Source of the DNA: Erysipelotrichaceae bacterium
GTDB lineage: Bacteria > Bacillota_I > Bacilli_A > Erysipelotrichales > Erysipelotrichaceae
DNA length: 37,485 nt
Direction: 5' to 3'
Assembly: GCA_017397025.1 (NCBI GenBank)
Contig: JAFQKG010000183.1
Span: 1 to 37,485, forward strand
This document shows positions 11,224 through 14,208 of this stretch, one piece after another. Below the pieces are notes generated by a model, which saw only the letters and a program-made list of their open reading frames with translations, did no database searches and had not been told where the DNA came from. How positions within the stretch are numbered: position 1 is the stretch's first letter; each line of letters begins with the position of its first letter. Position numbers and translations under genes: made by a program.

Positions 11224-11511
11224 ATTTCTAAATCCTTTCCATTGGGATCACTGTCGAATATCGCAGTAATATGTAGGATTGTCGCTGCAGCTATTCTTAG
11301 GCTTCCAATTTCACCATGCCTTTCTAAACCTTACAAATAGATGCATAAAGATTTCGTACTCAGCATGATAAAAATTATTTTTACAATCAAACTTTTCAGC
11401 TTTCTTATCCATACGAACAAAATCTTAATTCACTGTTTGTATAACATAAAAAAAACCCATGATTTCTCAGGGGTATAAAATGATATACTTGATTTAGTGA
11501 GGTGTGAATTG
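11224..11511. other. Divergent intergenic region at the edge of the element genes
   Basis: 288 bases between the outward-pointing primase-like gene and the plus-strand 11512 gene. It is AT-rich, contains a possible -10 box TATACT (11484-11489) for the plus gene, and shows no tRNA, no integrase gene and no direct repeat that I can identify as an attachment site. Confidence 0.4.
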
Positions 11512-11991
11512 ATGTCCGATGTAAAAAACTATCAAAAACATTTACTTCATATTTATCAAAATTTATATTCGTCTCGTTTGCTTCCGATTGAAGCAAGAGT
11601 GAAACCCGTAAAAAAACTTGTCAACTACTTCAAAAAGAATCTAACTGAAGAAGTTGAGAAAGAAAACAAAGAAGTTCTAGAAGCGCAGCAGCTGCTGTAT
11701 GAGACTCTTTCAGAAGCGATGCATTTTGAAAGTTCTTATAATCTGCTATATGCTGCTTTCAGTAAAGCAAGAGATCAGCTAAGACATGATCCAGAGCAGT
11801 TTGGCGGATTTGGCGATTTGCTAGAACAAATTCCATGCAAATCACCCGAAGAATCGATCATCTATCTTCTTTCAAAAGATGAAGCAAGCGTTGATTTTCT
11901 TGTCCGCTTGTATCTTGCAGAGCACAATGCTATCCTCCACCCTGAAGTCTTGCGCAATAATCGCAAAATGTTTGATGACCTTGACTTTTAG
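11512..11991 (+). CDS. Unknown small helical protein beside the repeat RNA
   Basis: 159 residues from the ATG at 11512, chosen for the GAGGTG ribosome site seven bases upstream; GTG (11497) and TTG (11509) are poorer alternatives. The protein is soluble and predicted almost entirely helical, with an early basic stretch (ARVKPVKKLVNYFKKN) and an acidic Glu-rich stretch after it, then LEQIPCKSPEESIIYLLSKDEASVD in part. No family is recognised. It is the only plus-strand gene in this area and is convergent with the long repeat RNA, their terminators lying back to back. Whether it works with that RNA cannot be told from sequence. Confidence 0.7.
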   Translation: MSDVKNYQKHLLHIYQNLYSSRLLPIEARVKPVKKLVNYFKKNLTEEVEKENKEVLEAQQLLYETLSEAMHFESSYNLLYAAFSKARDQLRHDPEQFGGFGDLLEQIPCKSPEESIIYLLSKDEASVDFLVRLYLAEHNAILHPEVLRNNRKMFDDLDF

Positions 11992-12025
11992 GTTTCTGTC
12001 TTTACTCACCATATATATTACTGAA

Positions 12026-12055
12026 ACAGGAGAAATCGAACTCTCCTGTTTTTTT
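12026..12055 (+). terminator. Terminator of the 11512 gene
   Basis: ACAGGAGA pairs with TCTCCTGT over an eight-base loop and runs into T7. It ends 13 bases before the oppositely oriented terminator of the repeat RNA. Confidence 0.88.
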
Positions 12056-12067
12056 GTCTATAAACAC

Positions 12068-12096
12068 AAAAAAGCCTCAGCTTTTCAGCCAAGGCT
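12068..12096 (-). terminator. Intrinsic terminator of the repeat RNA
   Basis: On the minus strand AGCCTTGGC pairs with GCTGAGGCT over TGAAAA (nine pairs, two G-U), followed directly by a T6 run. Confidence 0.88.
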
Positions 12097-12129
12097 ATAA
12101 TTTATCTGCAATTTCCTTTCGTCTTCCGC

Positions 12130-13900
12130 CGGATTCAATCCCTACAGCTGCTTCCTCCGACTCACCTTTGTCTTTCGACTTCCTTAGGCCATCCGTTCCT
12201 CGGCTTTCACCGTCTCACTTCAACTTTCTTCCTCCGCTTCTTTCGCATTCTTTCGTTTGCGCCAGGTTTGGATTCTGACTACTCAACCTCTGTTTCTGAT
12301 TTTCCCACATCTTCCTGACTCCGTCTCACAGTGACTTTATCAGTGCTCGTTCTCTTCTTTCGATTCGAACGTCTTCCCCGTTACCTTTTGCCTGATTTCT
12401 CGTGCATTCCTTCACGGTTCTGGTACTCACACTTACTGTATGTTTCTTTTTGCCCCTCCCTGATTCGCTCCCACAGCTGTTCCTCAGGTGCTTGTTTCCA
12501 GATTTCTCTTTCCACACTTTCCATTTCCCTGTAGCTTTCTTTCGTCCGCTTTCGTTCAACTTCCGGCTACTCAGCTTTCTGTTTCTTCCTTTCTGTTCTT
12601 CTCGTTTCAACCTCACAGCGGTCTTCACGATGCATCCTTTCCACTTTCGTTTTCAGGACGTCCCCGTTACCTTTTGCCTGATCTCTCATGCATCCCTTCA
12701 CGGTTCTCTTACTTGGCACTACTGATGGTTTCTTTTCGTTCTACCCTGCTTCGCTCCCGCAGCGGTTCCACAGGTGATTCCCTTTTGAATTTCTTCTCTG
12801 GGACCAATGCATTGCTTTCGTTTTCTTTCGTCCACTTCCACTTTAGCATCTCACTACTCAGCTTACTGCTTCTTCCGTTCCTTTTCTTTCCAGTTTCATC
12901 TCACAGTGACTCCTCTGGTGTGCGATTTGGCTTTCACCTCATCGCTTTCCCCTTTCTCTTTGACCTGATTTCTCATGTCTTTGATCCAGGTTTTTGTACT
13001 TGGCTTCCTGTTTGTTTCCTTTCACTCTGCTCTGATTCACTCCCACAGCTGTTCCTCAGATGATTCCCTTATGCCTTCGCTTTCGGGACTTTCTGCTTCC
13101 ATTCCACTTTCTTTCGTTCGTGTTCTGTCCGCTTCATGCTATTCAGCTCTCTGTGTTTTCCTTTCCACTCTTCCTAGGTTCGCCTCACAGCGGTTACCCC
13201 CAGTGCACGTCTCAGCTTTCGCTTCCTCGTTTTCCCCTTTCTTTTTGACCTGATCTCTCATGTCATTCTTCTAGGTTCTTGTACTCGGCTTCCTGTTTGT
13301 TTCCTTTCGCTCTACCCTGTTTTACTCCCACAGCCGTTTGACAGGTGATTCCTTTCGAATTTCTCCTTCAGGACGATTGCATGACTTCCGTTTTCTTTCG
13401 TCCACTTCCGTTTTAGCAATTCGCTACTCAGCTTCTGTTTCTTCCGTTCTCTTCTTCCCGGTTTTGTCTTACAGTGACTTTTCCAGTGCTTCAGTTCTTC
13501 CTTTCGGTTTCACTGTGTTCCACCTTATCTTCCATCTGGTTTCCCATATTTCTTTTCAGGCTTCTGATACTTGGCTTTCTGTTTGTTTCCTTTCATCCTT
13601 CCCGATTTCACTCCCACAGCTGTTTCACCGGTGCTTCCCTCTGTCCACTTCCTTGCGTCTGTTTCTTTGTCGGGATTGTCTGCGAACTTTCCACTTTCTT
13701 TCGTCCGTTTCATTTCGCTTCTGATTACTTGGCTTTCTGACTTTCTTTTCCCTTCTTCTCGATTTACCCTGTCAGCGGTTCAATCGAAATTTGTTTCCTC
13801 TTTAGTACAGCCTGTTGCCATGCTTTCCATTAGATTCTGGTACTCAGCATCCTGCAATTCCTTTCTCCAGCACTCTTTCGCCTCACAGCGGCTACTTTAA
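12130..13900 (-). repeat. Degenerate tandem array, nested 143/286/572-bp periods
   Basis: Plus-strand anchor B (CTCCCACAGCTGTT-like) occurs at about 12138 (degenerate), 12467, 12753, 13039, 13324 and 13610; the last five are spaced 286, 286, 285 and 286. Anchor A (CTCACAGYG-like) occurs at about 12325, 12612, 12900, 13184, 13468, 13769 and 13882. A and B alternate every 136-149 bases, so the 286-bp unit is itself two related halves. Successive A copies alternate between a TGAC and a CGGT ending, and B copies between CTG and CGG/CCG, which gives a 572-bp order above that. A third anchor, TTTCTTTCGTCC-like, at 12535, 12821, 13106, 13391 and 13693 confirms the spacing. Copies are heavily diverged, so the array is old, and its ends (before 12320 and after 13770) are most degraded. 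Confidence 0.88.
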
Positions 13901-14002
13901 TGCTTCAGCATTTTCCTTTCGGACTTTAGCTGATTTCCCATGGCTTGCGCTTTAGGTTCAGGTTACTTGGCATTAGGATTTTTCTCTTTCGATCTTTATC
14001 CT

Positions 14003-14033
14003 AGCTGTTTTTCTTGGTGTTTCCCAAGCAGCT
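14003..14033 (-). other. 5'-terminal hairpin of the repeat RNA
   Basis: From the predicted start the RNA reads AGCUG CUUGG, a GAAACA loop, CCAAG, five A bases and CAGCU. That is a ten-pair stem with an A5 bulge starting at the first transcribed base. Such a 5' hairpin could protect the RNA from decay. Confidence 0.7.
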
Positions 14034-14038
14034 CGCTT

Positions 14039-14067
14039 ATAATATCAGGCAAAAATACAACTGTCAA
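14039..14067 (-). promoter_or_regulatory. Strong sigma-A promoter of the repeat RNA
   Basis: Minus strand TTGACA (14067-14062, perfect -35), 17-base spacer, TATTAT (14044-14039, five of six). The predicted start is at about 14033. Confidence 0.87.
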
Positions 14068-14070
14068 CAG

Positions 14071-14107
14071 TTTTTTTAACATTTTTTGGATTTTTTTAAT
14101 ATTTTTT
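14071..14107 (-). promoter_or_regulatory. Phased A-tracts (UP-element-like) before the repeat RNA
   Basis: On the minus strand four A-runs of six or seven bases begin every ten or eleven bases (plus-strand T-runs 14071-14077, 14082-14087, 14091-14097, 14102-14107), ending three bases from the -35 box. Helically phased A-tracts bend DNA and bind the RNA polymerase alpha subunit, so this should raise promoter strength, as at rRNA promoters. Confidence 0.75.
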
Positions 14108-14185
14108 GAATGAAATCGCTTTCTTTTGAACAATTCTATCCAAATCCTCTTTTTCGAAGGCGACCCATCGTTTCAGCAAGAAAAA

Positions 14186-14208
14186 AAGGAGCTTTATAGA
14201 CTCCTTCT
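14186..14208 (-). terminator. Terminator downstream of the YesL-like gene
   Basis: On the minus strand AAGGAG pairs with CTCCTT over TCTATAAAG, followed by T7. It lies about 220 bases after the YesL-like stop codon. Confidence 0.65.

Follow-up and report, generated by a model that had tools for sequence, protein, structure and literature searches.

Very few bacterial RNAs of great size and elaborate structure have been described, and only a minority of these have an assigned function. GOLLD has been described for bacteria and phages, ROOL was first met in rumen sequences, and OLE is known for its protein partners. Cryo-EM of these three has shown that such RNAs can form RNA-only complexes: GOLLD forms a closed nanocage of 14 identical chains, ROOL an octameric cage (8 chains) and OLE a dimer (2 chains) (PMC12286853).

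The locus considered here lies in a window of 37,485 nucleotides, contig JAFQKG010000183.1 of an Erysipelotrichaceae assembly (GCA_017397025.1). Its minus strand is predicted to encode a giant RNA, shown by comparison with homologues in two Bacillota classes to belong to a structured, modular, non-coding family with its own promoter and terminator. The class is apparently undescribed and absent from Rfam 15. None of the Rfam covariance models (GOLLD, ROOL, OLE, HEARO, raiA and others) matched the window or the homologues at the gathering score, a search at E<=10 over positions 12000-14200 returned three unrelated chance matches only, and the open-licence papers searched contained no description of this RNA. 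A preliminary description of the locus, which recognized no known family, was therefore right on this point.

The giant RNA is like GOLLD and ROOL in kind only and is unrelated to both. GOLLD is also a very large, elaborately folded bacterial ncRNA and provides the model for a self-assembling role here. However, GOLLD repeats arise by assembly between chains, whereas these lie within one chain; and GOLLD occurs in bacteria and phages, whereas the copies examined here are on chromosomal contigs and phage and viral searches were empty. ROOL is likewise large and ornate and linked to the rumen, and we know of no internal tandem modules of this type in it. OLE, too, is a large, structured Bacillota RNA encoded by a gene of its own, but it has known protein partners, and no partner protein was found for the giant RNA. 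Sponge RNAs of the CsrB/CsrC type, which the giant RNA exceeds six-fold in size, also carry repeated elements in one multivalent RNA; they differ in that GGA in the giant RNA is only modestly enriched and not clearly in apical loops. Here, tandem modules sit inside one chain, their number seems to vary by whole pairs between species, and a class boundary is crossed. Such length variants from nature are material for structure work, and the giant RNA would allow a direct test of whether RNA alone builds size-variable particles in cells.

Gene boundaries and transcription signals

A minus-strand RNA gene with A-tracts, a TTGACA-17-TATTAT promoter, a 5' hairpin and a terminator had been proposed at this locus, and scans and alignments of the homologues place these elements as follows.

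14111..14124 (-), CRE-like (CcpA operator-like) sequence AGAAAGCGATTTCA; homology in the 5'-end alignment reaches upstream as far as this sequence
14071..14110 (-), repeated A-tracts, UP-element-like; A-rich stretch in every homologue with 5' sequence
14039..14067 (-), promoter TTGACA-17-TATTAT; promoter scan and conservation in homologues
12067..14033 (-), giant modular ncRNA, predicted transcript of 1967 nt; promoter/terminator scan, composition, homologues, covariation
14003..14033 (-), 5' terminal hairpin of the RNA; pairing kept across homologues
12067..12096 (-), intrinsic terminator; scan, and a comparable hairpin with a run of T in most homologues whose 3' end is present

The promoter (14067..14039) matches the consensus at 11 of 12 positions, has a TG before the second hexamer, and was the best in the region in the promoter scan. 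The alignment includes 10 copies whose 5' end is present, and each of them keeps TTGACA (TTGAAA in one short copy) together with a -10 element such as TAATAT. The promoter resembles those of tRNA-Leu in the same window and of tRNA-Lys at a homologue locus (L080), and a similar arrangement of A-tracts precedes both tRNA genes. An exact-pattern search of the source genome, using a pattern stricter than the RNA's own promoter, gave no match. Because the promoter is of the tRNA type, transcription of the giant RNA is probably high, in keeping with the strong promoter originally proposed. A stable-RNA style of expression is further supported by the copy at L082 (11571-13694), which is followed immediately by tRNA-Lys(ctt) and tRNA-Glu(ctc), neither a T-run nor a terminator intervening; its 3' end is perhaps made by tRNA processing. 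Among the loci scanned, this is the only one with tRNAs just downstream.

The stem of the 5' hairpin is maintained by different complementary sequences in most homologues (for example AGCUG/CAGCU, CUGUC/GACAG and UUCGCUU/AAGCGAA), with a poor fit in L085. At the other end, the expected terminator and its T6 were found, but the stem (12096..12073) has 10 pairs, 5 of them G-C, rather than the 9 first counted. The 3' sequence GGAAGACGAAAGGAAATTGCAG (12127-12106) is near-invariant: in each class, most copies match it exactly or almost exactly, and it is altered in L082. Homology ends at the terminator on the 3' side and, on the 5' side, at the CRE-like sequence within the genus and at the A-tracts elsewhere. 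A pairing between the two ends, AGCUGCUU with AAGCAGCU, is good in the window but by eye absent from L081, and was dropped. Beyond the terminator lies a convergent gene of 164 aa (11497-11991, plus strand) that has no Pfam match and a terminator-like hairpin of its own (12023-12052, plus strand).

The predicted 1967-nt transcript is 41% A and 31% G (72.3% purine), close to the 1.97 kb and about 70% purine given in the preliminary description. That account had also seen no lasting frame, and the longest minus-strand stretch free of stops is indeed 108 codons. Open stretches on the plus (antisense) strand reach at most 199 codons, compared with a mean of 212 in shuffled sequence; these long frames occur because a purine-rich opposite strand yields them by chance. 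Nearly every indel between homologues is a single nucleotide, and the open stretches are no longer than in shuffles; the giant RNA is therefore non-coding. A protein-coding tandem repeat gene was also sought as a conserved open frame, and none was found across the homologues.

Repeated modules and their covarying hairpins

Self-similarity of the transcript peaks at 286, 572 and 857 nt, a period of 286 nt, or 2 x 143. RAGUA motifs, spaced mostly by 142-145 nt, delimit 14 half-units of about 143 nt, and two types, A and B, mostly alternate through the middle of the RNA. The repeat build noticed earlier is thus more ordered than had been described. The half-units were placed with alignments of each type and with R1, a covariance model trained on 30 half-units of type B.

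13858..13976 (-), half-unit 1 (5' domain); R1
13739..13853 (-), half-unit 2 (short); R1
13582..13738 (-), half-unit 3 (A type, longer); type assignment and R1
13438..13580 (-), half-unit 4 (B); B alignment and R1
13296..13437 (-), half-unit 5 (A); A alignment and R1
13154..13294 (-), half-unit 6 (B); B alignment and R1
13011..13152 (-), half-unit 7 (A); A alignment and R1
12870..13009 (-), half-unit 8 (B); B alignment and R1
12725..12867 (-), half-unit 9 (A); A alignment and R1
12582..12722 (-), half-unit 10 (B); B alignment and R1
12439..12580 (-), half-unit 11 (A); A alignment and R1
12295..12436 (-), half-unit 12 (B); B alignment and R1
12175..12294 (-), half-unit 13 (diverged; approximate boundaries); RAGUA motif and relatives' alignment
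12106..12174 (-), terminal half-unit 14, A-type hairpin and GGAAGACGAAAGGAAATTGCAG (approximate start); weak R1 match at 12110-12209

R1 detects 13 of the 14 half-units, missing unit 13 and matching the last one weakly (E=0.037). Although trained on B units alone, it also matches A units; the two halves are therefore homologous and derive from one ancestor. Counts accurate to about one unit were obtained from R1 matches and an A profile, with the terminal unit included and some weak units placed by spacing: about 14 in the window and in contigs C83 and C91, about 12 in L085, and about 10 in L086 and L081. The differences seem to be whole A+B pairs, which would come and go between relatives. 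Two B half-units of one RNA (L012, 1316-1741) are 90% identical, and such near-alike neighbours within one RNA suggest duplication or conversion of modules, recent in L012.

A single alifold over A and B units jointly gave almost no structure because the units were misaligned; splitting the alignments by type before structures were derived solved this. Scored on the same alignments from which the structure was derived, the B units (n=30) have four helices with 16 pairs, in which 94.5% of 476 cells are paired and the covariation score is 0.618, compared with 0.259 in shuffles. Changes on both sides occur in 15 of the 16 pairs, a count of events that are not independent, as the units are related and several come from each RNA. 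In a control that retains this relatedness, with partners slid by 1-3 columns, 18-42% of cells pair. A units, scored in the same way, have 14 pairs, with 94.6% paired and both-sided changes in 10. Covariation over homologues, proposed earlier as a check, thus agrees with the reading of the locus as a dedicated structured ncRNA gene, as do the kept promoter and the lack of any Rfam match or coding signal. The locus thus shows what characterizes large structured ncRNAs in general, namely covarying secondary structure in a predicted independent, non-coding transcription unit.

Three covarying hairpins make up the B type: the first is in two parts and has purine-rich internal loops, the second is capped by GAAA, and the third has a 7-nt loop containing CUGUGA. 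GAAA loops closed by 2 bp number 21, versus 4.8 in shuffles (z 7.8). The symmetry of most of the purine-rich internal loops suggests straight, rod-like helices containing sheared G-A pairs; kink-turns were considered, and by eye the loops look symmetric and none fits. Relative to shuffles, single-sequence folding energy has a mean z of -1.7 for B units and -0.3 for A units, and each half of the RNA has a z of about -2. Such unremarkable energies would be expected if noncanonical pairs carry much of the fold.

Homologues and their genomic sites

In a whole-genome search, two of the three other species examined from the genus proved to carry homologues; identity is 86% over the full length in G002, which has further copies, and 82% in G001. 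A repeat-derived pattern, searched for in the genomes of 84,980 bacterial and archaeal species, returned 10 stretches. Nine are real by blastn (64-89% DNA identity), and the tenth, in a Planctomycetia MAG (L020), had no wider similarity and was discarded as chance. Three loci are the same contigs as those from the genus (L022 is C30 and L023 is C83 of G002; L026 is C91 of G001) and are not separate homologues; six genomes reached via homologue loci were also searched. The homology search suggested for the repeat unit thus led to two classes: the carriers are Erysipelotrichaceae and, in the other class, Oscillospiraceae/Oscillibacter (Oscillospirales). Wherever a source is named, it is a MAG from the gut of a ruminant (water buffalo, sheep, roe deer or goat). 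The RNA on an Oscillibacter contig (L084) is 80% identical to that of C83 over 748 nt, and its flanks have 58.6% GC, versus 38.5% in the window; presence across classes is therefore not simple mis-binning.

R1 detected the RNA in 5 of 245 genomes of the family and in 3 of 397 from the family of an Oscillospiraceae carrier, whereas samples of the order (394), phylum (392) and class (391) contained only already known carriers; these samples overlap, and the filters in runs over 40 genomes were stricter, which may have cost some weak relatives. By these searches the giant RNA is rare and patchy in distribution. Phage and plasmid DNA, and viral contigs searched with two patterns, yielded no copy.

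The genes flanking the RNA vary by locus (enolase, MntP, MgtE, Na/Pi cotransporter, alanine dehydrogenase, MATE, dUTPase and others), and no family is common to all neighbourhoods; the Na/Pi cotransporter is near the L015 and L081 copies and is not general. These two contigs, one from Erysipelotrichaceae and the other from Oscillospiraceae, also share a run of genes (L015 564-4006, L081 15505-18925) that are 84-90% identical at the protein level and that we take to be a pst phosphate operon. Gene transfer between classes, or a shared history of the regions, is possible.

Several copies occur at unrelated sites in G002, G001 and G272, and many contigs terminate within the RNA, as expected of assemblies at repeats. 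The trxB neighbourhood of the window occurs in G001 without the RNA, and the G001 copy sits elsewhere. There are two short copies of about 300-370 nt with few half-units, namely L080 and a G002 copy of about 370 nt made of the 5' part and the 3' end. A 5'-truncated copy lies inside a gene for a cysteine-rich secreted protein (L079, 8500-9000), with shared sequence GGCGAAAGCGGA at a junction that could reflect insertion, recombination or an assembly chimera. Given the differing sites, the empty G001 site and the short and truncated copies, the gene either moves or is frequently lost and regained. On inspection of the end alignments of the copies alone, neither inverted repeats at the termini nor duplications of the target were evident.

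Candidate functions

The best explanation, which we judge slightly more likely than not, is a chromosomal gene whose product is an abundant structural RNA that acts as a multivalent scaffold or self-assembling particle. The RNA would be highly transcribed from its tRNA-type promoter and would fold during transcription, forming rod-like hairpins in a chain, with GNRA or 7-nt loops as their caps, and the repeated A/B modules would form a multivalent platform. Docking of one module on another might build a particle, much as separate chains assemble in GOLLD and ROOL; alternatively, the modules might bind many copies of one partner, the scaffold speculated on in the preliminary description; changes in module number would set size or valency. 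More tentatively, and rather unlikely in our estimate, the 14 (or 12, or 10) half-units of the single chain, paired as A+B modules, may fold into a closed particle with pseudo-symmetry. This would be the intramolecular equivalent of the GOLLD 14-mer, and its size would evolve as module pairs are gained and lost. Against the structural-RNA reading in general stand folding energies that beat shuffles only modestly, and searches that turned up neither a partner protein nor a neighbouring gene shared by the loci. The short forms suggest that the full module set may not be needed, unless they are decaying copies, and the very patchy distribution is odd for a core structural part.

That distribution, with 80% identity between a contig flanked by 58.6% GC and Erysipelotrichaceae flanked by 38% GC, fits a selfish, non-autonomous mobile RNA element existing mainly to be copied, perhaps by a reverse transcriptase or recombinase in trans. 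The several copies per genome, the empty orthologous site in a sister species, and the one 5'-truncated and two short copies point the same way. However, no associated enzyme was found nearby, no inverted repeats or target duplications were noticed at the aligned ends, the phage, plasmid and viral collections searched hold no copy, and covariation in every module together with the kept promoter exceeds the needs of a passive element; we regard this reading as possible but unlikely. Decayed tandem-repeat or purine-biased DNA with no RNA function would account for the repeats and the strong purine skew, but is scarcely credible given the compensatory base-pair changes across two classes, the kept promoter, the near-invariant 3' motif and unit numbers that change by whole pairs; the B-unit covariation largely refutes it.

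A sponge for a small RNA or protein was also raised in the earlier account; such a multivalent sponge, titrating a small RNA, a CsrA-like RNA-binding protein or ribosomes, gains little from motif counts. GGA occurs 87 times versus 68.6 in shuffles (z 3.6) and AAGGAA 14 times versus 6.3, and purine linkers recur between hairpins, but ANGGA reaches only z 1.9, AGGAG is depleted (z -2.5) and GGAGG is not enriched. By eye, GGA is mostly in linkers and internal loops, unlike the apical loops of CsrB, and at paired positions covariation preserves the pairing but not the sequence, which is unexpected for a plain sponge; we consider this improbable. It is very improbable that the RNA is a processed leader or spacer of stable-RNA operons with no function of its own: the tRNA-type promoter and the L082 copy before tRNA-Lys and tRNA-Glu would suit a leader, but downstream tRNAs occur at that one scanned locus only, a terminator-like hairpin belongs to most copies whose 3' end is present, and the modular structure is conserved.

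The upstream sequence AGAAAGCGATTTCA, which we liken to the CRE consensus and treat as a candidate site, lies about 45 bp upstream of the -35 element, a placement known for activation by CcpA, and could link the giant RNA to carbon supply. In most copies of the genus, TGTAAGCGTTTTAA stands at this position instead of AGAAAGCGATTTCA.
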